A stretch of DNA of 64,000 bases from Gammaproteobacteria bacterium (lineage in GTDB: Bacteria; Pseudomonadota; Gammaproteobacteria; Nevskiales; Nevskiaceae), in NCBI GenBank assembly GCA_016182805.1, contig JACPFV010000011.1, forward strand, positions 1 through 64,000, read 5' to 3'. The translations under genes were made by a program, and so were the position numbers. Positions 14,621-31,326 of the stretch are shown here, piece after piece (the stretch's first letter is position 1; each line of letters begins with the position of its first letter). The notes beneath the pieces are model-generated. The model did not search any database. It saw only the letters and a list, made by a program, of their open reading frames with translations, and was not told where the DNA came from.

Positions 14621-14636
14621 TCACCCGTTCGGACGA
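14621..14636 (+). promoter_or_regulatory. Candidate steroid-regulon operator 2 (SDR-DUF3604 unit)
   Basis: TCACCC-GTTC-GGACGA, fitting TCRYCC-N4-GGRYGA, lies 56 bp before the SDR start at 14693. A TAGGAT hexamer at 14659-14664, 22 nt after the dyad, could be the -10 element and would centre the dyad at -42.5. The two arms are not perfectly complementary, but each matches the half-site consensus. Confidence 0.5.
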
Positions 14637-14692: not shown

Positions 14693-15460
14693 ATGGCGGA
14701 TCACGCAAGAGTCGTGCTGGTGACCGGCGGCGCCAAGGGCGTTGGCCGCGGTGTCGGCGAGCGGTTCCTGGCGGCGGGGGCGCGCGTCTTCGTGTGCGGC
14801 CGCGAGACGCCGGCGGAGCTTCCGGCCGCCGGCGGGCGCGCCGCCGAGTTCATCCCTGCGGACGTCCGCGACGTCCAGGCGCGCGACGCGCTGTTCGCGG
14901 AAATCCTGGCCCGCGCCGGGCGTCTCGACGTCCTGGTGAACAATGCCGGCGGCGCGCCTTTCGCATTGGCCGACAAGGCATCGCCGCGCTTTCACGAGGC
15001 GATCGTCCAGCTCAATCTGCTGGCGCCGCTGCACCTGGCGCAGAAGGCCAACGCCTTGATGCAGGCGCAGGACGGCGGCGGCGTGATTGTGTTCGTCGCC
15101 AGCATCGGCGCGCTGCGGCCCTCGCCGGGCACCGCGGCGTACGGCGCGGCCAAGGCGGGCATCGTGAGCCTCACGCAGTCGCTGGCGGTGGAATGGGCGC
15201 CCAAGGTGCGCGTGGTCGCGGTCAGCCCGGGTCTGGTCCGGACCGAGCAGTCGCATCTGCATTACGGCGACGAGGTCGGCATCGCCGCGGTCGCCGCCAC
15301 CGTCCCGCTCGGCCGCCTGGCGACGCCGGGCGACATCGGCGAGGCCTGCGTGTGGCTGGCCTCGCCGGCGGCGGCCTACGCCTCCGGCACCAACCTGGTC
15401 CTGCACGGCGGCGGCGAGCGCCCGGCGTTTCTTTCCGCGGCGCAGGTGAACAAGCCCTGA
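14693..15460 (+). CDS. Short-chain dehydrogenase/reductase
   Basis: Classical NAD(P)-dependent SDR, 255 residues from ATG 14693. The cofactor motif is VTGGAKGVGRGVGERF near residue 10, NNAG near residue 83, the catalytic Ser lies in VFVASIGALRPS, and the YxxxK pair in AAYGAAKAGIVSL. The C-terminal ATPGDIGEACVWLASPAA and YASGTNLVLHGGGE are typical. It is first in a tight unit with the DUF3604, PPIase and HupE-like genes (9-nt, 0-nt and overlapping junctions) and follows candidate operator 2. A hydroxysteroid or hydroxyacyl-CoA substrate is plausible from context but unproven. Confidence 0.9.
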   Translation: MADHARVVLVTGGAKGVGRGVGERFLAAGARVFVCGRETPAELPAAGGRAAEFIPADVRDVQARDALFAEILARAGRLDVLVNNAGGAPFALADKASPRFHEAIVQLNLLAPLHLAQKANALMQAQDGGGVIVFVASIGALRPSPGTAAYGAAKAGIVSLTQSLAVEWAPKVRVVAVSPGLVRTEQSHLHYGDEVGIAAVAATVPLGRLATPGDIGEACVWLASPAAAYASGTNLVLHGGGERPAFLSAAQVNKP

Positions 15461-15469
15461 GGGGGACGC

Positions 15470-17413
15470 ATGCGGCGGACACTCGGCATCTTGCTGCTGC
15501 CACTGCTGGCGGCCTGCACGGACGGGGGCGGCGGCGCGCCGAAGCTCGCTCCGGCCGGTGAAGTGCGCTGCCATCACTACAACGCGAAGCGCCAGCCGTT
15601 TTTCGGCGACCTGCACGTCCACACCAAGTACTCGCTCGATGCCAACACGCAGGGCACCATCATCGATCCGCACGAGGCGTACCGCTTCGCGCAGGGCGAG
15701 GAGGTCGGCATCCAGCCGTACACGGCCGAGGGCGTGCCGTTGCGGCATGCGCAGCTCGCGCGGCCGCTGGATTTCACCGCCGTCACCGACCACGCCGAGC
15801 TGTTCGGCGAGACCGAGATCTGCACCAATCCGGAACTGGACGGCTACGACTCGCCGGAATGCCGTTTCTACCGCGCCGCCCCGGCGCAGGCCTTCATCTT
15901 CTTCAACCTGATGGGACCGGGCCTGTTCGGGCTGCCGACCGCCGACGGCGGCGAGGCGATCCCGCGCCTGCCGTTCTGCGGGCTTGGCGGCGAGCGCTGC
16001 ATCGAGGCCTCGAAGACGCCCTGGCGCGACATCCAGCGCGCCGCCGACGCCTTCTACGACCGCAGCGCCGAATGCCGCTTCACCACCTTCGTCGGCTACG
16101 AATGGACCGGCGCGCCGGAGTCCAACAATCTGCACCGCAACGTCATCTTCGAATCGGAAATCGTGCCGGAGATTCCCGCGAGCTATTACGAGACGCCGGA
16201 GCCGGAGCTGCTGTGGCAGGCGCTGGACGAGCACTGCCGCGGCGACGAGGGCTGCAACGTGCTGACCATCCCGCACAACTCCAATCTCAGCGGCGGCCTG
16301 ATGTTTGCCCGGCAGCACCCCGACGACAAGGCGATGGACGCGGAATATGCGCAGGCGCGCCAGCAGAACGAGCCGTTGGCGGAGATCTACCAGCACAAGG
16401 GGCAGTCGGAGTGCCTCGGCACCGGCGGCGCCGGCGCGGCGGACGAGCAATGCGGCTTCGAGTTGCTGCCGTACCGCAACTTCGCCGGCAGCCAGGTGCA
16501 CCCGGCGTTCAGCGGCCCGCCGCTGGAGCAGGACTTCCTGCGCTCGGCGCTTAAGGAGGGCTTGCGGCTGGAGCAGGCGCTGGGCGTCAATCCGTTCAAA
16601 TACGGCCTCATCGGCAGCTCCGACACCCACCTCGGCACGCCGGGCCTCGTCAACGAATCCGGCTATCCGGGGCATGGCGGCGCCGGCGGCAGCGCGCGCA
16701 ACGAAGTTCCACCGGGGCTGTCGGACCGCATCGAGAACAGTCCCGGCGGCCTGGCCGTGCTGTGGGCCGAACAGAACACGCGGCCCTCGCTGTTCGCGGC
16801 GATGCGCCGGCGCGAGGCGTACGCGACCAGCGGCACGCGGCCGGTGGTCCGCTTCTTCGCGGGCTGGGACCTGCCGCAGGGGTTGTGCGCCAGCCACGAC
16901 TTCGCCGGCGAAGGCTACCGCCGCGGAGTGCCGATGGGATCGGACCTGCCTGCGTCGCGGGCCGCCGGAGCGCGGCCGCGCTTCGCGGTGTCGGCGCTGC
17001 GCGACCCCAGCGCGGATGGCGAGTCTGCCGAGCCCTTGCAGCGCATCCAGATCGTCAAGGGTTGGATTGTCGACGGCGACAAGCGCGAGAAGGTTTACGA
17101 AGTCGCCGGCGACCCGAACAACGGCGCCAGCGTGGACCTGTCCACCTGCGAAACCTCCGGTCGCGGATTCGCCAGCCTGTGCACCGTCTGGGAAGACCCG
17201 GACTTCGATGCCGCGCAGCCGGCGTTCTACTACGCCCGCGTGCTGGAGAATCCGAGCTGCCGCTGGGCTACGCGGCAATGCCTTGCGGCCAAGGTGGATT
17301 GCAGCGACGCCGATTCGGTGCCCAAGGAATTTGCCGGTTGCTGCGATGCGAACTACCCGAAGACGGTGCAGGAGCGCGCCTGGACTTCGCCGATCTGGTA
17401 TCGGCCGCAGTAA
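15470..17413 (+). CDS. DUF3604 (PHP-like) predicted lipoprotein
   Basis: Protein of 647 residues with a lipoprotein signal LLLPLLAAC (lipobox cysteine near residue 16). The DUF3604 domain begins FFGDLHVHTKYSLDA near residue 46, with metal-ligand-like histidines (HVHT), then FTAVTDHAELFGE, VLTIPHNSNLSGG and YGLIGSSDTHLGTPG, a pattern like PHP-fold metallo-phosphoesterases. Many cysteines in the body suggest disulfides outside the cytoplasm. It is followed without a gap by the PPIase gene. The enzymatic function of DUF3604 is not settled. Its place in an operon with an SDR under a candidate steroid operator hints at a link to steroid metabolism; that is inference. Confidence 0.85.
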   Translation: MRRTLGILLLPLLAACTDGGGGAPKLAPAGEVRCHHYNAKRQPFFGDLHVHTKYSLDANTQGTIIDPHEAYRFAQGEEVGIQPYTAEGVPLRHAQLARPLDFTAVTDHAELFGETEICTNPELDGYDSPECRFYRAAPAQAFIFFNLMGPGLFGLPTADGGEAIPRLPFCGLGGERCIEASKTPWRDIQRAADAFYDRSAECRFTTFVGYEWTGAPESNNLHRNVIFESEIVPEIPASYYETPEPELLWQALDEHCRGDEGCNVLTIPHNSNLSGGLMFARQHPDDKAMDAEYAQARQQNEPLAEIYQHKGQSECLGTGGAGAADEQCGFELLPYRNFAGSQVHPAFSGPPLEQDFLRSALKEGLRLEQALGVNPFKYGLIGSSDTHLGTPGLVNESGYPGHGGAGGSARNEVPPGLSDRIENSPGGLAVLWAEQNTRPSLFAAMRRREAYATSGTRPVVRFFAGWDLPQGLCASHDFAGEGYRRGVPMGSDLPASRAAGARPRFAVSALRDPSADGESAEPLQRIQIVKGWIVDGDKREKVYEVAGDPNNGASVDLSTCETSGRGFASLCTVWEDPDFDAAQPAFYYARVLENPSCRWATRQCLAAKVDCSDADSVPKEFAGCCDANYPKTVQERAWTSPIWYRPQ

Positions 17414-18343
17414 ATGTTGCGCCGCCTCGCGCGCCAGCCGCTGCTTCATTTCCTCGTGCTCGGCGGCCTGCTGTTCGCTGCGCAGAACCTTCTGAAGCCG
17501 CGCCATCCGATCCACGTCACCGCCGCCGACGTGCAGCGCCTGCGCGAGGACTGGCGGCGCGAGACCGGCCGGGCGCCGACACCGGTCGAGCTGCAAGCCA
17601 GTCTCGATCATTGGCTCGGCGACGAAGCTCTGCTGCGCGAGGCGCTGCGGCTGGGCCTGGACCGCCGCGACGCGGTGGCGCGACGGCGCCTGCTGATGAA
17701 TTTGCGCTTCGCGTTTCCCGATGGACCGGACGATGAGGCGGCGCTGCTGAAGGATGCCGAGGCGCTGGAAATGCAGTCCAGCGACGTCGTCGTGCGCCGC
17801 CGCCTGATCCAGGCGATGGAGCAGCGCTTGCTCGGCGAGCAGCGGCTGGCTGAGCGCGAGCTGACGGATTACGTCGCGGCGCATTCGGAGCGCTACGGCG
17901 CGCACGTGCGCTACCGGTTCCGGCAGGTGTTTCTGGCGGCGGGACGGCCGCCGGACGACGCGCGGCGCATCCTGGCGCAACTGCGGGCGCAGCCGTGGCC
18001 GGAGACGCTTCCCGGCGATCCGTTCCTGCTGGGGCAGCGTTTCGACGGGCTGACCGCGGCCGAGGTCGCGCGCCAGCTCGGCCGGGAGGTGGCGGAAGCC
18101 GTCGCCGGCGCGGCAACCGGCGCATGGACCGGGCCGGTCGCCTCGCCGTACGGCTTGCATCTGCTGCAAGTGGAAGAGGCGATGCCCGGTGCGCCGGCCG
18201 CGCCGGACGCCGTGCGCCGCCAGGCCGCCTATGCACTGCTGGCGGAGCGCGAGGCGCAGGCGCTGGCCGCCGCGCGGGTGCAGTTGCGGCAGTGCTACGG
18301 CGTCGTCGTGGACGACGAAGGCGGCTTGAGGAAATCGGCGTGA
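17414..18343 (+). CDS. Parvulin-like peptidyl-prolyl isomerase, membrane-anchored
   Basis: Protein of 309 residues with an N-terminal membrane segment (LLHFLVLGGLLFAAQNLL, residues 11-28), so the body is probably periplasmic. The central part has the SurA/PpiC-like helical arrangement (VELQASLDHWLGDEALLREA). A degenerate rotamase region includes VRYRFRQVFLA and WTGPVASPYGLHLLQVEEA. Its ATG follows directly after the DUF3604 stop, and its stop overlaps the next gene (GTGA). It may fold the DUF3604 or HupE-like partner; isomerase activity is not certain. Confidence 0.78.
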   Translation: MLRRLARQPLLHFLVLGGLLFAAQNLLKPRHPIHVTAADVQRLREDWRRETGRAPTPVELQASLDHWLGDEALLREALRLGLDRRDAVARRRLLMNLRFAFPDGPDDEAALLKDAEALEMQSSDVVVRRRLIQAMEQRLLGEQRLAERELTDYVAAHSERYGAHVRYRFRQVFLAAGRPPDDARRILAQLRAQPWPETLPGDPFLLGQRFDGLTAAEVARQLGREVAEAVAGAATGAWTGPVASPYGLHLLQVEEAMPGAPAAPDAVRRQAAYALLAEREAQALAAARVQLRQCYGVVVDDEGGLRKSA

Positions 18344-19347
18344 TACGCCACGCCCTGCGTGCCGCGAGCCTGCTGCTGGCCTTGCTGCTCGCGCCGCCGG
18401 CGAGCGCGCACCCGCTGGCGCCCGCGCTGCTGGAGCTGCACGAAGCGGGCGAGGGTCGCTACGAGGTGCTGTGGCGCGGCTCGGTGTCGGCGGCGCTCGG
18501 TGTCGAGCCGCAATTTCCGGCCGCGTGCCGGCGCCTGCGGGAACCGGAAGCGGAGCGGGAAGGGCGCCGTACCTTGACCTTGCGTTGGACCCTGCACTGC
18601 GCCGGCGGGCTGGACGGCCGCGAGATCTCGGTGGCCGGCCTCGACCGCGCCGGCATCAACGCGATCCTGCGCCTGCGGCGTGCGGATGATCGCGTGCAAA
18701 AGGCCTTGCTGGATGCGCGCAAGCCTGGATATATCGTTCCGTCAACGGCGGAAGCCTCGGCGGTGTTCCCGGCCTATTTGCGGTTGGGCGGCGGCCACCT
18801 GCTGCTCGGCTTCGATCACCTGCTGTTCGTGCTGGGACTCGTGCTGCTGATCGCGCGACGCGGGGCTCTGGTGCTGGCGGTGTCGGCATTCACGCTGGGG
18901 CACAGCCTGACGCTGGCGCTGGCGACGCTGGCTGTGCTCGGTATTCCACCCGTCCAGGCCGAACTGGGGATCGCGCTCTCCATCCTGGCTCTGGCCGTCG
19001 AGCTGGCGCGGCGCGGAACCGGCGGCGCCGGCTGGATGGCCCGCTACCCCTGGCAAATGGCGCTCGCTTTCGGCTTGCTGCATGGCCTGGGCTTCGCCGG
19101 GGCGTTGGCCGAAGTCGGTCTGCCGCGGGCGGACCTCGCGTGGGCGCTGCTGGCCTTCAATCTCGGTATCGAGGCGGGGCAGTTGCTGGTCATCGCCCTC
19201 GCGCTCGCGCTGCTGCAAGTTGCGCGCGCCGCGGCCGGGAGCGTGCCGTCCACCTTGGGCACGGTGGCGCGCGCGCTGCCGGCGTACTCAATCGGGACGC
19301 TGGCGGCGTTCTGGTGCTTCGAGAGGGCCGTCCAGCTCGGGCTTTGA
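18340..19347 (+). CDS. HupE/UreJ-like membrane protein with periplasmic domain
   Basis: Protein of 335 residues from GTG 18340, which overlaps the PPIase stop. It has a cleavable signal (LLLALLLAPPASAHPLAP), a roughly 120-residue periplasmic domain, then six or seven hydrophobic helices. HLLLGFDHLLFVLGL, FTLGHSLTLALATL and FGLLHGLGFAGALAEVG are the His-rich motifs of the HupE/UreJ_2 family. The family name comes from hydrogenase/urease accessory Ni carriers, but no Ni enzyme genes are nearby. It is the third member of the DUF3604-PPIase-HupE trio, probably co-transcribed with the SDR at 14693. Confidence 0.82.
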   Translation: MIRHALRAASLLLALLLAPPASAHPLAPALLELHEAGEGRYEVLWRGSVSAALGVEPQFPAACRRLREPEAEREGRRTLTLRWTLHCAGGLDGREISVAGLDRAGINAILRLRRADDRVQKALLDARKPGYIVPSTAEASAVFPAYLRLGGGHLLLGFDHLLFVLGLVLLIARRGALVLAVSAFTLGHSLTLALATLAVLGIPPVQAELGIALSILALAVELARRGTGGAGWMARYPWQMALAFGLLHGLGFAGALAEVGLPRADLAWALLAFNLGIEAGQLLVIALALALLQVARAAAGSVPSTLGTVARALPAYSIGTLAAFWCFERAVQLGL

Positions 19348-19370: not shown

Positions 19371-19386
19371 TCGTCCCATCGGGTGA
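19371..19386 (+). promoter_or_regulatory. Candidate steroid-regulon operator 3 (atypical SDR)
   Basis: TCGTCC-CATC-GGGTGA lies 62 bp before the SDR start at 19449 and only 24 bp after the HupE-like stop. It matches TCRYCC-N4-GGRYGA exactly. A weak GACAAT hexamer at 19410-19415, 23 nt after the dyad, is a possible -10. Confidence 0.55.
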
Positions 19387-19448: not shown

Positions 19449-20222
19449 ATGACACAAAAAGATTTTCCGGAAGGCGCGGTCGTGGTATTCGGCGGCAGCG
19501 GGGGGATCGGCCAGGTGGTCGCGAAATCGTTTGCGCAGGCCGGGACCGATGTTGCGGTCGCTTACCGCTCCAAACGCGAAGTGGCCGAACGCGTCGCGGC
19601 CGACATCCACGGCCTGGGCCGCAAGGCCTCGCTGCACGCGGCCGACGTGACCGATGCCGCACAGGTGCGCGCGGCGGTGGACGAGGCGGCGCGGGCGCAC
19701 GGGCGCATCCACACGGTGGTGTTCGGTGCCGGGCCGGTGGTGGAGCAGGTGCTGCTGGGCGAGACCGGCGAGTCGCTGTGGCGGCGTTCGCTGGACGTCG
19801 AGGTCAACGGTTTCTTCAACGTGGTGCAGGCGACGCTGCCCTATCTGCGCGCGGCGGGCGGCGGCTCGTACGTGCATCTCGGCTCGGCCGGGCATCTGTG
19901 GTGGCCGCCCAAGGACGGGCTTTCTGTGGTGCCCAAGGCGGCCAACGAGGCGCTGGTCAGGGGCATCGCCAAGGAAGAGGGGCGCAACAACATCCGCGCA
20001 AATTCCGTCCTCGTGGGCGTGATTGAGGCCGGCATGTTCCTGGAGCTGCTGCGCCGCGGTGTGTTCGACCGGAAGTGGATCGACGAGACGCAGAAGCTGC
20101 TCGCGCTCAAGCGCTGGGGCAAGCCGGAAGAGGTCGGCCATGCCGCGGTGTTCCTGGCCTCGAACAAGGGCGCGTACATCACCGGCCAGCAGATCAACGT
20201 GTCCGGCGGCTTCGGGGTCTAG
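19449..20222 (+). CDS. SDR-fold protein lacking the catalytic tyrosine
   Basis: Short-chain dehydrogenase fold, 257 residues from ATG 19449. The cofactor loop is VVFGGSGGIGQVVAKSF, and the C-terminus VFLASNKGAYITGQQINVSGG is typical of the family. The active site is unusual: after the serine in HLGSAGHLWWPP, the YxxxK position reads SVVPK (GLSVVPKAANEAL), so serine replaces the proton-donating tyrosine. The NNAG motif is also replaced by FGAG. It may be a non-redox SDR, a different chemistry, or a binding protein. It sits between the HupE-like gene and kshA, with candidate operators on both sides. Confidence 0.82.
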   Translation: MTQKDFPEGAVVVFGGSGGIGQVVAKSFAQAGTDVAVAYRSKREVAERVAADIHGLGRKASLHAADVTDAAQVRAAVDEAARAHGRIHTVVFGAGPVVEQVLLGETGESLWRRSLDVEVNGFFNVVQATLPYLRAAGGGSYVHLGSAGHLWWPPKDGLSVVPKAANEALVRGIAKEEGRNNIRANSVLVGVIEAGMFLELLRRGVFDRKWIDETQKLLALKRWGKPEEVGHAAVFLASNKGAYITGQQINVSGGFGV

Positions 20223-20228
20223 TTCCCG

Positions 20229-20244
20229 TCACTCAAACGGGTGA
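20229..20244 (+). promoter_or_regulatory. Candidate steroid-regulon operator 4 (kshA)
   Basis: TCACTC-AAAC-GGGTGA lies 58 bp before the kshA start and 7 bp after the preceding SDR stop. It deviates from TCRYCC-N4-GGRYGA at one base, and the arms pair at 5 of 6 positions. The -10 is unclear (TACCAA or CAAACT, 19-22 nt after). Confidence 0.5.
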
Positions 20245-20302: not shown

Positions 20303-21412
20303 ATGGCCGCCGTCATGAAGACAGGAACCGCGCCGATACACAAGATCGAAGCCAAGGCGCCGCCGGAGCGCTACGCGCGCGGCTGGCACTGCCTGGGCCT
20401 CGCGTCCGACTACAAGGGCGGCAAGCCGCATTCGCTCAACATCTTCGGCACGCGCCTGGTGGTGTTCCAGGGCGCGGACGGCCGGTTGAATATCCTCGAT
20501 GCCTGGTGCCCGCACATGGGCGCCGACCTCGGCATCGGCGAGGTCAAGGGCGACTCGGTGGTGTGCAAGTTCCACGGCTGGTCCTGGGGCGGCGACGGCG
20601 TGTGCAACCACATCCCGTACGCCAAGCGCATCCCGCCCAAGGCGCGCATCAAGAGCTGGCCGACGCTGGAAGAGAACAGGATGCTGTTCGTGTGGAACGA
20701 CCCGGAGGGCAACCCGCCGCCGCCGGAGGTGCGCATCCCGCGCATTGCGCCGGTGTTCTCGGGCGAGTGGTCGGACTGGTCGATCGTCAAGTGGACCATC
20801 CACAACAACTGCCGCGAGCTGATCGACAACATCGCCGACATGGCGCACTTCGGCCCGGTGCATGGCGGCAGCGGCGTGGTCTATTTCGCCAACATCTTCG
20901 ACGCGCACAAGGCGACGCAGGTCATGGTCGGCACGTTCGAGAACCTCGGCGGCAAGGACGACTACCTGACGACGGTCGCGAGCTACTACGGCCCCGCGTA
21001 CCAGATCACGCACATGTTCGGCAGCATGCAGGGCTATCCGGTGGAGTCGATCCTGCTCAACTCGCACACGCCGATCACGCCCAACAGCTTCGACCTACGC
21101 TTCGGCGTGATGGTGAAGAAATTCCCCGGCATGTCGAAGGAAGCCTGCGACGCCATGGTCAAGCAGTACGTCGACATGACCAACAAGGCGTTCGGCGAGG
21201 ACGTGCAGATCTGGCACAACAAGGTGCGCGTCGACAACGCCATGCTGTGCGACGGCGACGGCCCGATCGTCCAGAACCGCCAGTGGTACGAGCAGTTCTA
21301 CCTGGACGCCGCCGCGGTGCCGCCGCAGCAGAAGGCCCGCCGCGTGGTCGAGATCGACAAGGGCGTGCTCAAGGAGAAGCCCAGGCTGGTCCACGCCTTC
21401 GACGAGGCGTAG
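20303..21412 (+). CDS. kshA: KshA-type 3-ketosteroid 9alpha-hydroxylase oxygenase (Rieske)
   Basis: Oxygenase component of a Rieske non-haem iron monooxygenase, 369 residues from ATG 20303, with a GAGAGGAG ribosome site about 10 nt before it. Rieske ligands are C69 and H71 (CPHMGADLG) and C88 and H91 (CKFHGWSW). The mononuclear iron motif NIADMAHFGPVH gives D179, H182 and H187, close to the positions known in KshA. KshA hydroxylates C9 of 3-ketosteroids, which with KstD opens ring B. The needed reductase (KshB) and KstD are not in the window. It is flanked by a candidate operator and by the ketosteroid isomerase gene. Another steroid-specific Rieske oxygenase is the main alternative. Confidence 0.87.
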   Translation: MAAVMKTGTAPIHKIEAKAPPERYARGWHCLGLASDYKGGKPHSLNIFGTRLVVFQGADGRLNILDAWCPHMGADLGIGEVKGDSVVCKFHGWSWGGDGVCNHIPYAKRIPPKARIKSWPTLEENRMLFVWNDPEGNPPPPEVRIPRIAPVFSGEWSDWSIVKWTIHNNCRELIDNIADMAHFGPVHGGSGVVYFANIFDAHKATQVMVGTFENLGGKDDYLTTVASYYGPAYQITHMFGSMQGYPVESILLNSHTPITPNSFDLRFGVMVKKFPGMSKEACDAMVKQYVDMTNKAFGEDVQIWHNKVRVDNAMLCDGDGPIVQNRQWYEQFYLDAAAVPPQQKARRVVEIDKGVLKEKPRLVHAFDEA

Positions 21413-21430: not shown

Positions 21431-21817
21431 TCAGGCCGGTCCCAGCAGCTGCATGTCGCCCGGTCCCCAGTAGGCGCGCATCGACGCGAACTTGCCGGTC
21501 GCGTCGAAGGTCATCACGTCGATCACGCGGATCAGCGCGCGGCCCTGCGGCATGTTGAGCTGGACGTCGAAGGCCATGGCCGCCGCGTTGCCGTGCGAGG
21601 CGCGGATCGGGGCCGCCAGCGCCAGCTTGGCGCCGGTGGCGACCGCCATCTTGTAGAACGGCCCGATCCTGGCCTTGCCCACCAGCGGCGCCTTGCCGAC
21701 CGGGTCCTCCACCGTCGCGTCGTCGGCGTACAGCGACACGATGCCGTCCACGTCCGAGCGGTTGAAGGCGTCGATGTAGGCCTGCATGGCCTGCTTCATC
21801 GTCTGTTCGCTGACCAT
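21431..21817 (-). CDS. ksi: Steroid delta5-isomerase (ketosteroid isomerase)
   Basis: Protein of 128 residues that moves the C5=C6 double bond of 3-keto-5-ene steroids to C4=C5. From ATG 21817 the catalytic tyrosine is Tyr14 (QAYIDAF) and the base Asp38 (DDATVEDPVG), exactly the numbering of the Comamonas enzyme, which supports this start over upstream ones. A later acidic residue in RVIDVMTFDATG (near 100) fits the third catalytic position. AYWGPGDMQL is near the end. It is convergent with kshA (18-bp gap) and has candidate operator 5 upstream. Linkage of a ksi gene to a LuxR regulator recalls the Comamonas testosteroni steroid locus. Confidence 0.93.
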   Translation of the reverse strand: MVSEQTMKQAMQAYIDAFNRSDVDGIVSLYADDATVEDPVGKAPLVGKARIGPFYKMAVATGAKLALAAPIRASHGNAAAMAFDVQLNMPQGRALIRVIDVMTFDATGKFASMRAYWGPGDMQLLGPA

Positions 21818-21881
21818 CGTCGGTGCGCTCCGCGCGGTTGGTGGCGCGCGTAATGGTCCATCACGGGGTCGCCGGGCGGGA

Positions 21882-21897
21882 TCGTCCCAACGGACGA
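21882..21897 (-). promoter_or_regulatory. Candidate steroid-regulon operator 5 (ksi)
   Basis: TCGTCC-CAAC-GGACGA, a perfect 6-bp dyad with a 4-bp spacer, lies 64 bp before the ksi start and about 200 bp before the divergent LuxR gene. On the ksi side a GACCAT hexamer lies 23 nt after the dyad. Arms are identical to operator 1. Confidence 0.6.
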
Positions 21898-21956
21898 GCA
21901 CGGACGCCGCCGCATGGCGCATGCTGACCCCGGGATGGCGCAGGCCCGCCCGGCGC

Positions 21957-23371: not shown

Positions 23372-23695
23372 TTACAACTTCGCCAGCTTCTCCGCGTCGA
23401 AGAACGACGACAGGCGCTGCGCCAGCATCAGGTCGCCGTCGACCTGGAGCTTGCCGGTCATGAACGCCATCATGCCGTTCAGCTCGCCCTTCATGAGCTG
23501 CACGAGGTCGCCGTCCTCCATGGTCAGGGAGACGTCCGGGCTCGGCGCGCTGCCGACGGTGACGGTGCAGTTGCCGCTCTGGATCGTCGCGTACACCGGC
23601 TGCGAGATGTTGAACTGGAGCACGCAGTTCGCGTCGGCGGCGGCGCCCGCGTTGAAGGCGGCGGGGAGATTCTGCAGGAATTCGACGGCGCTCAT
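23372..23695 (-). CDS. SCP2 sterol-binding domain protein
   Basis: Single-domain sterol carrier protein 2 fold, 107 residues, the usual length of stand-alone bacterial SCP2 proteins. Typical features are the N-terminal EFLQNLPAAFN helix, DVSLTMEDGDLVQLMKGELN and the C-terminal MMAFMTGKLQVDGDLMLAQRL helix lining the hydrophobic tunnel. It binds or shuttles steroids, fatty acids or acyl-CoAs. It has candidate operator 6 just 36 bp before its start and a clear terminator after its stop, so it is a monocistronic unit within the steroid cluster. Confidence 0.9.
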   Translation of the reverse strand: MSAVEFLQNLPAAFNAGAAADANCVLQFNISQPVYATIQSGNCTVTVGSAPSPDVSLTMEDGDLVQLMKGELNGMMAFMTGKLQVDGDLMLAQRLSSFFDAEKLAKL

Positions 23696-23731
23696 GGGAG
23701 TCCTCTCAAAAAGTGGAGACCGATCCTAACC

Positions 23732-23747
23732 TCGCCCGCTCGGACGA
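23732..23747 (-). promoter_or_regulatory. Candidate steroid-regulon operator 6 (SCP2 gene)
   Basis: TCGCCC-GCTC-GGACGA lies 36 bp before the SCP2 start, matching TCRYCC-N4-GGRYGA. A second half-site GGACGA lies at 23763-23768. On the SCP2 side a TAGGAT hexamer lies only 3 nt after the dyad, so the geometry differs from the other sites and could mean repression or another start point. Confidence 0.45.
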
Positions 23748-23820
23748 CGCAATGCGCAATTCGGACGAGGTGGCCCCGCCGGTCGGGCCGTAGGCTCGGC
23801 CCGACCGGCGGCGCGTTCCG

Positions 23821-26800
23821 TCATGCCGCGGCGCGCAGTTCCGTCGCGGCGGCGCGCACGCGCTGCTCGTCGCGGCCGATGTAGAGATACATCGCCGGGA
23901 CGACGTAGAGCGTGAACAGCGTGCCGATGGTCATGCCGGCCGCGATCACCATGCCCATCGAGAAGCGCGCGGCGGCGCCGGGGCCGCTGGCCAGCAGCAG
24001 CGGCACCATGGCGACCACCAGCGCCGCGGTGGTCATCAGCACCGGCCGCAGGCGGATGCTGGCGGCCTCCTCGATCGCCTCGCGCTTGGACAGGCCGGCG
24101 TTCTGCTGGAGCTTGTTGGCGAACTCCACGATCAGGATGCCGTGCTTGGAGATGACGCCGATCAGCGTCACCAGGCCGACCTCGGTGTAGATGTTGCGCG
24201 TCATGCCGGGGAACGCGGTCAGGCGCATGCCGTTGGTGATGCCGAAGATGTTGAGGATCAGCAGCGCGCCGCAGATCGACATCGGCACCGTGACCAGCAT
24301 GATGATCGGGTCGCGGAACGACTCGAACTGCGCCGACAGCACCAGGTAGATGGCGATCAGCGCGAAGGCGAAGGTGACGAGCAGCGCCGCGCCTTCCTGC
24401 TTGAACTGGCGCGAGGGGCCGGCGTAGTCGATCTGGAAGCCGGCGGGCAGGACCTCGTCGGCAATGCCTTCCAGCACCGCCAGCGCCTCGCCCTGCGGCA
24501 CGCCGGGCCGCGGCACGCCGATCAGCACGTTGGCGTTGAGCTGCTGCGCGTGCTCGACCGTGCGCGGGCCGGTCTGGTGCCGGATCGCGACCAGCGTGGC
24601 GATGGGGATGAGCTGGCCGCCGGCGGCGCGCGTGTAGTAGCCGGCGAGCTGCTGCGGGTTCAGGCGCTCGCCGCGCTCGGCCTGCTGGATCACGCGGTAC
24701 GAGCGGTTCTCGAACGAGAAGCGGTTGACCTCGCCGCCGGCCAGCAGCGCCGACAGGTCGGCCGACAGGCGCTGCATGTCCACGCCCAGCAGCGCGGCCT
24801 TGTCGCGGTCCACCTCGATCACCGCTTCCGGGCGGTCGATGCGCAGGCGCGGCGCCAGGAACATGAACTTCTTGGTCGCCATCGCGCGGCCGATGATCTC
24901 GTCGCCGAGGCGGGCGAGGGACTCGGGCGGGAAGGTGGACTTGAGCACGAACTCGACCGGGTAGCCCTGGCCGGGCGTCGGCAGCGGCGGCGGCTCGATC
25001 ACCTGGCTGCGCAGGCCGGCGACCTGCGACAGCTTGCCGTTGACGTCGGCCACGATCTGCTTGGACGAGCGCTCGCGCTCGGCCCAGGGCGACATGATCA
25101 GGCCCATGAAGCCGGTGTTGGTGCTGCCGGCGCCGCCGACGCTGAAGGTGAAGATGTGCTTCACGTCGGGGTCGGACAGCACGATCTTCTGCGCCTGGCG
25201 GAAATACTGGTCGAGGTACTCCTGCGAGGAATAGCCGTCCGACTCGTTGATGGAGAATGCGAAGCCGGCGTCCTCGGCCGGCGCCAGCTCGCGCGGCGTC
25301 ATGCGCCACAGCAGCACGCAGGACACCAGCACGATGAGGCCGAACACGCCGATCACGTGGTGCGTGTCCAGCGCGCCGTGCAGGCGGCGCTTGTAACCGC
25401 TGCGCAGCCACTCGAACGCGGCGTCCAGGCGCTCGGCCAGCCGCCCTTCGCCGTGCGCCGGCTTCATCAGCCGCGCGCACATCATCGGCGTCAGCGTCAG
25501 CGCGATCACGCCGGAGATCAGCACCGCGCCGGCCAGGGTGAAGGCGAACTCCGTGAACAGCTTGCCGGTGATGCCGGAGAGGAAGCCGATCGGCGCGTAC
25601 ACCGCCATCAGCGTGACGGTCATGGCGACGACCGGGCCGACCAGTTCGCGCGCGCCGCGCACGGCGGCGTCGTACGGCTTCATGCCGCCCTCGATGTGGC
25701 GGTGCACGTTCTCCATGACGATGATCGCGTCGTCCACCACCATGCCGATCGCCAGCACCATCGCCAGCAGCGTCAGCAGGTTGATCGAGAAGCCCATCGC
25801 GTACATCAGGAACAGTGCGCCGACCAGCGACAGCGGCACCGTGATCGCCGGGATCAGCGAGTTCCGCAGCGAGCCCAGGAACAGGAAGATGACCGCGACG
25901 ACGATCGCGACCGCCTCGATCAGCGTAGTCCGCACTTCGCGGATCGCGTTGCGGATGTAGACCGTGCTGTCGTAGCCGATCACGGCGTCGAGCCCTTCGG
26001 GCAGGCCCTTGAGGATGTCCGGCCACACCTCGCGCACCGCGGCGGTGACGTCGAGCACGTTGGCCTCGGGCCGCGTCTCCACGCCGATGAAGATCGCCGC
26101 GTCGCCGTCCCAGCCGGCGCCGCCGTCGTAGGTCTCGGCGCCCAGGATCACGTCGGCCAGGTCGCCCAGGCGCACGACCGAGGCGCCGTCGGACTTGATC
26201 GCGATCTGCCTGAACTCGTCGGGCGTGCGCAGGTCGGTGCGCGCCGACAGGCCGATGCGCACGTAGTTGCCCTTGGCCTCGCCGATCGCCGACAGCACGT
26301 TCTGGCTGCGCAGGCGCGCGTAAACCTCGCTCGCGGTGAGGTTGTGCGCGGCCAGCCGGTCCGGCTTGAGCCAGACGCGCATGGCGTAGGTGCGGGCGCC
26401 GATGATCTTGGCCTTCTCGACGCCGGCGATCGAGGCGAGCTGCGGCTCGACCACGCGCATCAGGTAGTCGGTGATCTGGCTCTTGCTCAGCACCTTCGAG
26501 TAGAAGGACATGTACATCGCCGCCGTGCCGCGGCCTTCCGCGACCTCGATCACCGGGTCCTCGGAGCCGTCCGGGAGCTGGTTGCGCAGCTTGTTGACCT
26601 TGGCCGAGATCTCGGTCAGCGCCTCGTTGGGGTCCTTGTCCAGGCGCAGGTTGGCGGTGATCGTGGTCGAGCCGTGGCCGGTCGAGGAGGTGAGGAAGTC
26701 GATGCCGTCGGCGGTGGCGATCTCGCGCTCCAGCGGCGTGGTCACGAAGCCTTCCATCAGCTCCGGGTCGGCGCCGGGATACATCACGCCGACGTTGATC

Positions 26801-26931
26801 TGGGCGTTGCGCAGCTCCGGGTACTGCCGGATCGTGAGGTCGAAGCCGGAGCGCAGGCCGAGCAGCAGGATGACCAGGCTGACCACCGTCGCCAGGACGG
26901 GGCGCTTGATGAAGATGTCGGTGAAGTGCAT
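23821..26931 (-). CDS. RND efflux transporter inner-membrane subunit (HAE1/AcrB family)
   Basis: Proton-driven multidrug exporter, 1,036 residues, the normal length. It begins MHFTDIFIKRPVLATVVSLV, the classic RND N-terminus. Helix 4 carries the proton-relay aspartate pair in IGMVVDDAIIVMENVHRH near residue 405. Two periplasmic loops with internal symmetry and the C-terminal GVISKHGILIVEFANKL segment are present. It starts 1 nt before the adaptor stop region and is co-directional with the adaptor and TetR genes. Next to steroid catabolism it may export steroids or bile acids, but substrate assignment is inference. No outer-membrane factor gene is present here. Confidence 0.94.
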   Translation of the reverse strand: MHFTDIFIKRPVLATVVSLVILLLGLRSGFDLTIRQYPELRNAQINVGVMYPGADPELMEGFVTTPLEREIATADGIDFLTSSTGHGSTTITANLRLDKDPNEALTEISAKVNKLRNQLPDGSEDPVIEVAEGRGTAAMYMSFYSKVLSKSQITDYLMRVVEPQLASIAGVEKAKIIGARTYAMRVWLKPDRLAAHNLTASEVYARLRSQNVLSAIGEAKGNYVRIGLSARTDLRTPDEFRQIAIKSDGASVVRLGDLADVILGAETYDGGAGWDGDAAIFIGVETRPEANVLDVTAAVREVWPDILKGLPEGLDAVIGYDSTVYIRNAIREVRTTLIEAVAIVVAVIFLFLGSLRNSLIPAITVPLSLVGALFLMYAMGFSINLLTLLAMVLAIGMVVDDAIIVMENVHRHIEGGMKPYDAAVRGARELVGPVVAMTVTLMAVYAPIGFLSGITGKLFTEFAFTLAGAVLISGVIALTLTPMMCARLMKPAHGEGRLAERLDAAFEWLRSGYKRRLHGALDTHHVIGVFGLIVLVSCVLLWRMTPRELAPAEDAGFAFSINESDGYSSQEYLDQYFRQAQKIVLSDPDVKHIFTFSVGGAGSTNTGFMGLIMSPWAERERSSKQIVADVNGKLSQVAGLRSQVIEPPPLPTPGQGYPVEFVLKSTFPPESLARLGDEIIGRAMATKKFMFLAPRLRIDRPEAVIEVDRDKAALLGVDMQRLSADLSALLAGGEVNRFSFENRSYRVIQQAERGERLNPQQLAGYYTRAAGGQLIPIATLVAIRHQTGPRTVEHAQQLNANVLIGVPRPGVPQGEALAVLEGIADEVLPAGFQIDYAGPSRQFKQEGAALLVTFAFALIAIYLVLSAQFESFRDPIIMLVTVPMSICGALLILNIFGITNGMRLTAFPGMTRNIYTEVGLVTLIGVISKHGILIVEFANKLQQNAGLSKREAIEEAASIRLRPVLMTTAALVVAMVPLLLASGPGAAARFSMGMVIAAGMTIGTLFTLYVVPAMYLYIGRDEQRVRAAATELRAAA

Positions 26932-30918: not shown

Positions 30919-30933
30919 GGCTCGATCGAGGGA

Positions 30934-31071
30934 CTATGCCGTCAGGCGCCGCATCAGAGCCGGATAGGCATCGGGAAACAGTCGCGCGATCCAGAACATG
31001 GCCTATGCCGTCAGGCGCCGCATCAGAGCCGGATAGGCATCGGGAAACAGTCGCGCGATCCAGAACATGGC
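30934..31071. repeat. 69-bp perfect tandem duplication
   Basis: Copies 30934-31002 and 31003-31071 are identical, and identity continues 2 more bases. The unit encodes, on the minus strand, the last 22 codons and the TAG stop of the SDR pseudogene. Because 69 is a multiple of 3 and includes the stop, the distal copy is left untranslated between the SDR and thiolase genes. Confidence 0.97.
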
Positions 31072-31326
31072 CTTGGCCATGTGACCCTGGTCGGCGTGAT
31101 CGAAGAACGCCTTGCGCGACGACGCGTCGAACACATATGCGCGGACGTCGCACTGGGCCAGCGAGCGCACGGTCTCGTCGAGCGCGCTGCGGTTGATATC
31201 CGACAACGCCAGTCGCGCACCGCGAACTGCCAGTTGTCGCGCCAATGCACGTCCGATGCCGGAGCCAGCACCGGCGATGACCACGACCTTGTCCCGGAAT
31301 TGACACTGCTGACGCGGGCACCCCAT
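31003..31326 (-). pseudogene. Short-chain dehydrogenase with internal deletion
   Basis: The reading frame from ATG 31326 begins as a normal SDR (KVVVIAGAGSGIGRALARQL, then ALSDINRSALDETVRSL) but jumps at FFDHADQ directly to the C-terminal helix MAKAMFWIARLFPDAYPALM. About 120-150 residues holding NNAG, the catalytic Ser and YxxxK are missing, so the 107-residue product cannot be an active SDR. It lies 2 nt after the CoA ligase stop in the acyl-CoA operon. The 3' end is duplicated downstream. Loss of this step would have to be covered by another SDR. Confidence 0.85.

Follow-up and report, generated by a model that had tools for sequence, protein, structure and literature searches.

The 64,000-nucleotide stretch of DNA analysed here (the window; a Nevskiaceae genome, contig JACPFV010000011.1) encodes an SDR-fold protein in which a serine stands where classical SDRs have their catalytic tyrosine. 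Has this gene decayed, or does it encode an enzyme that does something else, and if so, what? The original prediction held that the gene is intact, tightly packed and flanked by two copies of a dyad, and that its product is probably functional but not a classical dehydrogenase. The first two points are borne out by the reading frame and its surroundings: the frame has no internal stop, the closest ORF upstream, of HupE/UreJ type, ends at 19347, and kshA starts downstream at 20303 (Table 1).

Table 1. Positions of the SDR gene, its neighbours and the operator-like dyads within the window
Feature	Position	Strand	Basis
SDR-fold protein, 257 aa, E118-S146-D156-S159-K163 replacing the N-S-Y-K tetrad	19449..20222	+	PF13561 158 bits, orthologue alignments, model pLDDT 94.6
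kshA, 3-ketosteroid 9alpha-hydroxylase oxygenase	20303..21412	+	PF19298 247.7 bits and Rieske domain
Ketosteroid-isomerase-like SnoaL_2/NTF2 protein; real start probably within this frame	21431..21922	-	SnoaL_2; PDB steroid delta-isomerases, best E 6.2e-17
Operator-like dyad TCGTCCCATCGGGTGA, 62 bp upstream of the start codon of the SDR	19371..19386	+	Pattern search; counterpart in 12/73 orthologue loci, own included
Operator-like dyad TCACTCAAACGGGTGA, 58 bp upstream of the start codon of kshA	20229..20244		Pattern search
Third exact dyad copy, 56 bp ahead of the classical SDR gene at 14693	14621..14636	-	Pattern search
Classical SDR (PRK07856 family) with normal YxxxK, behind the third dyad	14693..15460	+	NF005893 380.8 bits (cut-off 255); YGAAK in translation

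Active site and fold of the SDR

In Pfam, the protein matches adh_short_C2 (158 bits) and adh_short (101 bits). Its spacing S146-x12-S159-x3-K163 is the same as the classical S-x12-Y-x3-K, and Ser159 therefore lies precisely at the position of the catalytic tyrosine. Spacing and translation thus confirm that YxxxK reads SVVPK and that NNAG reads FGAG (F92-G-A-G95), a site with the form x-[A/G]-A-G in nearly all close relatives (tier 1, see below). A tyrosine shifted to a nearby position is ruled out as a substitute donor, since inspection of the window protein found none between residues 146 and 190. The catalytic serine and lysine of classical SDRs are retained as Ser146 and Lys163. One more exchange had escaped the original prediction: the asparagine of the tetrad is replaced by Glu118. 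The cofactor loop is kept, as had been claimed, although the classical Thr is a Phe; it reads F14-G-G-S-G-G-I-G21, was counted as a TGxxxGhG loop, and its Gly15, Gly19 and Gly21 are invariant in the 49 rows of alignment A1 (see below).

The AlphaFold2 model built with A1 (pTM 0.93) has the Rossmann fold of SDRs. The best 50 Foldseek matches listed are ordinary SDRs with 26-32% identity, and the top match in VIA-align is FabG 2uvd (Z 37.0, rmsd 1.3, 246 aligned residues, 28% identity). Consistent with this fold match, a PDB sequence search with the A1 profile gave 3osu (E 9.4e-44). FabG-type 3-oxoacyl-ACP reductases are the best matches in both sequence and fold, yet they have N-S-Y-K and NNAG where the window SDR has E-S-S-K and FGAG. 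DECR-type structures do not occur among the 50 VIA-align matches listed, which has no bearing on kinship with DECR. Database entries for members of the Ser159 clade are annotated as "3-ketoacyl-ACP reductase" or "SDR family oxidoreductase".

Conservation of Ser159 and relation to other SDRs

Among 80 loci recovered by scanning genome contigs, 48 (L001-L048) are full orthologues with 41-81% identity to the window SDR; all 48 have serine at the tyrosine position. Together with the window SDR they make up the 49 rows of A1, in which G15, S17, G19, G21, S146, D156, S159 and K163, among others, are invariant. A profile search over 129 loci separated three groups. Tier 1 (348-459 bits; 84 rows, 73 distinct) has H88, S146, D156, S159 and K163 in 73/73 distinct rows each, and an acid at position 118 in all 73 (Glu in 54, Asp in 19). 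Tier 2 (175-252 bits; 14 rows) consists mostly of extra genes in genomes of the window's family, together with Rhodococcus WAY2, and has D118, T146, S159 and K163 in 14/14 rows and D156 in 13/14. A gap in score follows, and then the ordinary YxxxK SDRs, none of which exceeds 161 bits. Over the distinct rows of both tiers, Ser159 and Lys163 are found in 87/87, Asp or Glu at 118 in 87/87, and Asp156 in 86/87. The tier-2 relatives L120-L129, L114, L115 and L084 (Asp118, Thr146, Asp156, Ser159, Lys163) occur in several copies per genome, also in Rhodococcus.

According to the original prediction, tyrosine in close orthologues would mark the serine as a strain-specific loss. No tyrosine is found at position 159 among the 73 distinct tier-1 and 14 tier-2 sequences. 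As every distinct orthologue examined has Ser159, a strain-specific loss is refuted, and strain-specific decay or a sequencing error is ruled out as the cause of the serine. The same holds for a pseudogene, since the gene is intact and conserved.

For a control within the window's genome, 20 of 25 PF13561 places were fetched (left out were three in the window and two others). Twelve of the 19 scored frames have a clear S-x11-13-YxxxK, and one has a looser form. The SDRs at L148 (contig C50) and L151 (contig C39) of this genome are without YxxxK; they have Thr or Ser, then Arg, and group in the tree with PECR/citronellol-type SDRs.

The tree was built from 93 rows (41 thinned tier-1, 14 tier-2, 32 YxxxK and 6 DECR-type sequences). 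A branch with an SH-aLRT support of 100 divides the Ser clade from all other rows, and the support is again 100 when four trait columns are omitted (column 115 omitted; column 118, the acid site, retained). DECR/PECR-type SDRs with serine at the tyrosine position reduce the C=C bonds of enoyl-CoAs. Human DECR1 (1w6u; SASAK), the FadH-like 3imf (SAAAK), human PECR (1yxm; SGAAR) and the citronellol-catabolism SDR 6lln share with the window SDR the SDR fold, the serine at the tyrosine position and a basic residue four positions further on, which is Lys in DECR1, 3imf and the window SDR and Arg in PECR and 6lln. Unlike these proteins, the window SDR has Ser146, an acid at 118 and the added Asp156. 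It has also lost NNAG, unlike DECR, and it is without Tyr148, the upstream tyrosine of DECR1 and 3imf (this position is Gly in 41/41 tier-1 tree rows and Tyr in 2/6 DECR-group rows). Although five of the six DECR/PECR rows have serine at the tyrosine position, this group forms its own branch in free trees, separate from the Ser clade. A tree constrained to join the two is not rejected (p-AU 0.739), so that the serine may have arisen once or twice.

Within a known superfamily, the Ser159 clade is a conserved and apparently unnamed active-site variant, and the pathway to which it is tied is known as well. A full-text literature search, which did not extend to the Chol11 proteome (PMC8432579), gave no description of the clade among the matches listed; we do not claim that it is unpublished. 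A term search of PMC10653915, PMC5790920 and PMC4810484 gave nothing on a Ser159 SDR.

KshA, the dyad and neighbouring genes

Among 61 related genomes, 28 have a tier-1 SDR and 29 have KshA at E <= 1e-50, a cut-off that was set after the table had been seen. Both are present in 28 genomes, KshA alone in one and neither in 32 (Fisher 1.5e-16, with shared ancestry ignored). At E <= 0.001, the cut-off that the search itself applies, a KshA_C match is found in 34/61 genomes, and six KshA-positive genomes are without tier 1; two further genomes, G003 and G036, have tier 2 only. Across the phylum, 398 genomes were sampled; tier 1 occurs in five of them, all within the eight that have KshA at E <= 1e-40. 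The first pass over this sample scored few candidates per genome. A second search that scored every candidate found no clade member in four KshA-positive genomes (G122, G142, G364, G010; best 135 bits), which rules out the SDR as a general obligate partner of KshA. The SDR gene is tied to KshA but dispensable for some KshA pathways. The SDR and the strongest listed KshA places are at most 10 kb apart in 8/28 genomes. Co-occurrence with HsaD was uninformative as a test, because other meta-cleavage hydrolases pass the same cut-off; HsaD-, HsaF- and HsaG-like genes are present in the wider window.

The shared dyad that had been proposed to flank the SDR gene fares differently under different patterns. 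With the strict palindrome TCACYC-N4-GRGTGA it stays at chance level: the copy upstream of the SDR has two mismatches, and at this cut-off there are five matches against 6.5 expected. The relaxed TCRYYC-N4-GRGTGA, by contrast, fits both copies exactly and speaks against chance. For TCRYYC-N4-GGGTGA there are five exact matches in the 2.07 Mb genome, against one for the reversed control: at 19371, at 20229, before the classical SDR at 14693, on contig C59 and on contig C19. TCRYCC-N4-GGGTGA or its complement is found upstream of the SDR in 12/73 distinct tier-1 loci, the window's included, with a mean of 0.005 loci in a mononucleotide-shuffled control. The relaxed pattern was picked after some sites had been seen; independent support comes from the match on C59 and from upstream sites in relatives that were unseen when it was picked. 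The C59 copy lies directly upstream of an hsaC-like extradiol dioxygenase gene (NF045631 267 bits and TIGR03213 282 bits, below their respective cut-offs of 450 and 366). The shared dyad is a credible predicted operator of a steroid regulon, and with operator-like dyads before it, before kshA and before the hsaC-like gene, the SDR gene belongs to this predicted regulon. The region 33500-39500 of C59 (L166) is a second steroid-type cluster, with a CoA-transferase family gene, the hsaC-like dioxygenase behind the dyad, an FAD-binding (PRK07121/KstD-like) gene and a classical SDR.

KshA-type Rieske and KstD-like genes are also found near the SDR in Sphingobium and SAR86 loci. The gene order in Sphingobium TomTYG65 is 3-oxosteroid 1-dehydrogenase, hypothetical protein, KshA-type oxygenase and Ser159 SDR, and that in Chol11 is KstD-like FAD protein, SnoaL_2, Ser159 SDR and old-yellow-enzyme-type protein. 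A SnoaL_4 gene on the same strand lies within 700 bp of the SDR in 33/73 distinct tier-1 loci, some loci being too short to show one, and in 0/14 tier-2 loci; a universal SnoaL_4 partner is thereby ruled out. On the plasmids of N. aromaticivorans and ES2-1, the SDR gene overlaps a downstream NTF2/SnoaL_4 gene by a few bases. The Nevskiaceae-type partner (L004) is a homolog of the bile-acid 7alpha-dehydratase BaiE (structure 4l8p, E 9.6e-17), whereas the SnoaL_4 neighbours of other types (L024, L081, L082) differ at BaiE-like positions. A BaiE-like gene, often adjoining the SDR, is present in 25/28 SDR-positive and 0/33 SDR-negative related genomes (Fisher 3.7e-14, again with shared ancestry ignored). 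The window's own genome (80% complete) and two other SDR-positive genomes yielded none.

The window has further features. The classical SDR, DUF3604, PpiC-type PPIase and HupE/UreJ genes stand in a row at 14693-19347, and the latter three recur together near the SDR in L009, L011, L013-L015, L021 and L048. At 23372-26931, a frame of 1036 aa that by eye resembles an RND-type transporter stands beside an SCP-2 sterol-transfer gene (23372-23695), within the steroid cluster. A repeat search turned up nothing that bears on the SDR gene, but it shows a 69-bp unit duplicated in tandem at 30931-31068 with 99% identity; beside it, at 31105-31272 on the minus strand, lies a short SDR-like fragment (30 bits, profile positions 1-58), possibly a truncated SDR gene.

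Proposed reaction and rival readings

The conserved altered site, the co-occurrence with KshA, the dyad and the neighbours support the earlier view that the protein is probably functional without being a classical dehydrogenase. Two roles had been suggested for it, a new step or the binding of a steroid; because Lys, Ser, Asp and Glu/Asp are invariant, an enzyme is likelier than a mere binder. With the tyrosine replaced by serine throughout the family, it probably carries out a reaction other than the classical one, and perhaps removes a C=C bond from a steroid. Our main reading, to which we assign a probability of about 0.4, is that of an NADPH-dependent reductase of a conjugated 3-ketosteroid.

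We infer its cofactor, substrate and reaction, and its pairing with a BaiE-like partner, along the following lines. The SDR would act in the degradation of the steroid nucleus, co-regulated with kshA. It probably binds NADPH, to judge by its Gly-rich loop and the basic residues after strand 2. Having exchanged the proton-donor tyrosine for Ser159 and the tetrad asparagine for an acid (Glu/Asp118), and having gained the invariant Asp156, it would most likely have given up C=O reduction and carbinol oxidation. Asp156 stands seven residues before Lys163, which we take to be the place where FabI-type reductases carry their tyrosine. Ser146, Ser159 and Lys163 may hold the carbonyl of the conjugated 3-ketosteroid, while the hydride would go to the far end of the C=C bond (conjugate reduction) and a carboxylate or water would deal with the proton, as in DECR/PECR-type SDRs and Mentha isopiperitenone reductase. 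The BaiE-like dehydratase of most Nevskiaceae-type relatives could produce such a dienone by removal of a hydroxyl, and the SDR and its partner would then be a flavin-free reductive dehydroxylation pair.

This conjugate reduction is favoured by the near-invariance of positions 118, 156, 159 and 163 in a clade set off by a branch of full support, by the action of known SDRs with serine at the tyrosine position on the C=C bonds of enoyl-CoAs, by the presence of the SDR in 28/29 genomes with a strong KshA against 0/32 of the others, by the BaiE-like gene and the same-strand SnoaL_4 neighbours, and by the dyad before the SDR, kshA and hsaC-like genes. Mentha SDRs, as described in excerpts of PMC4988501, offer a precedent: Glu for Tyr goes with ene-reduction, one Tyr/Glu swap turns ketone reduction into C=C reduction or back, and Tyr was replaced in only four further SDRs among over 500. 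Like the window SDR, Mentha isopiperitenone reductase has lost the catalytic tyrosine in an otherwise classical SDR site, and its chemistry is that of a cyclic enone; however, it is a plant enzyme with Glu rather than Ser at this position, and the two are likened by description, not by sequence. A dehydratase of BaiE/NTF2 fold followed by a C=C reductase is established logic for steroids, as the available portions of PMC8399759, PMC12882949 and PMC13101464 describe for Hsh1/Sor1 (SteC/SteD) and Hsh2/BaiE, and resembles the pair proposed here; the SteD model, though, is described there as similar to ScdK of the nitropropane-dioxygenase family, whereas the window protein is an SDR. Against conjugate reduction speak the free trees that part the Ser clade from DECR (a joint clade being merely not rejected), the missing upstream tyrosine and NNAG of DECR, the three SDR-positive genomes without a BaiE-like gene, the window's among them, the SnoaL_4 neighbours that deviate from BaiE outside the Nevskiaceae type and are missing at tier-2 loci, and the shared ancestry that the co-occurrence statistics ignore.

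The retained Ser146 and Lys163 and the FabG ketoreductases as nearest folds would also fit a protein that is still a carbonyl reductase or hydroxysteroid dehydrogenase and obtains its proton from Asp156, from water via Lys163 or from a substrate with a phenol group, a 9,10-seco-steroid for instance. We consider this rather unlikely, as fold likeness does not reveal the reaction and the same cluster already includes, behind a copy of the dyad, a classical YxxxK SDR. The seco-steroids of the 9,10-seco pathway are phenols, which counts in its favour. So does the substrate-assisted reductase SimC7, which, according to excerpts of PMC5039031, reduces a ketone without the tyrosine through a phenol of the substrate; but SimC7 is an extended SDR with Ser-Ile-His that has lost the lysine too, and this lysine is invariant in the Ser159 clade. 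Unlikely as well is an enzyme that has left redox chemistry, with a Rossmann site that serves structure or a bound cofactor and with Asp156, Glu118 and Lys163 providing general acid-base catalysis for a step next to KshA, be it elimination, isomerisation or a retro-aldol reaction; the opening of ring B of the 9alpha-hydroxylated dienone is one example. The two new conserved acids and the loss of the redox proton donor would suit it, as would the near-perfect co-occurrence and shared dyad with kshA and the nearby KshA-type Rieske and KstD-like genes of the Sphingobium and SAR86 loci. However, the strict retention of the cofactor loop argues for use of NAD(P), four KshA-positive genomes do without the SDR, and ring-B opening is reported as spontaneous in the accessible part of PMC8399759. 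A specific form of it, an SDR-fold non-redox enzyme that works on the product of KshA and catalyses and steers ring-B opening and aromatisation in a proteobacterial 9,10-seco branch absent from some other KshA-bearing bacteria, seems to us very improbable. Slightly better, but still improbable, are the prospects of a pseudo-enzyme, be it a steroid- or NAD(P)-binding sensor, a carrier, or a partner subunit of KshA, KstD or the NTF2-like neighbour: the loss of Tyr and Asn, the conserved neighbours and the overlap with the NTF2/SnoaL_4 gene on the two plasmids would agree with it, but a pure binder would have no need for Lys163, Ser159, Ser/Thr146, the acid at 118 and, in all but one sequence, Asp156, which are kept at 41% identity and beyond.

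A whole SDR clade has a consistently rebuilt active site, and in genomes related to the window's its presence matches that of KshA nearly one for one. The Ser159 SDR marks a step in widespread aerobic steroid degradation, in Nevskiaceae, sphingomonads and marine SAR86, that is absent from some KshA-bearing genomes. Should it prove to be an ene-reductase, it would reduce the C=C bonds of steroids without a flavin and be of interest to steroid chemistry; should it be a non-redox enzyme, a step believed to be enzyme-free would need revision.
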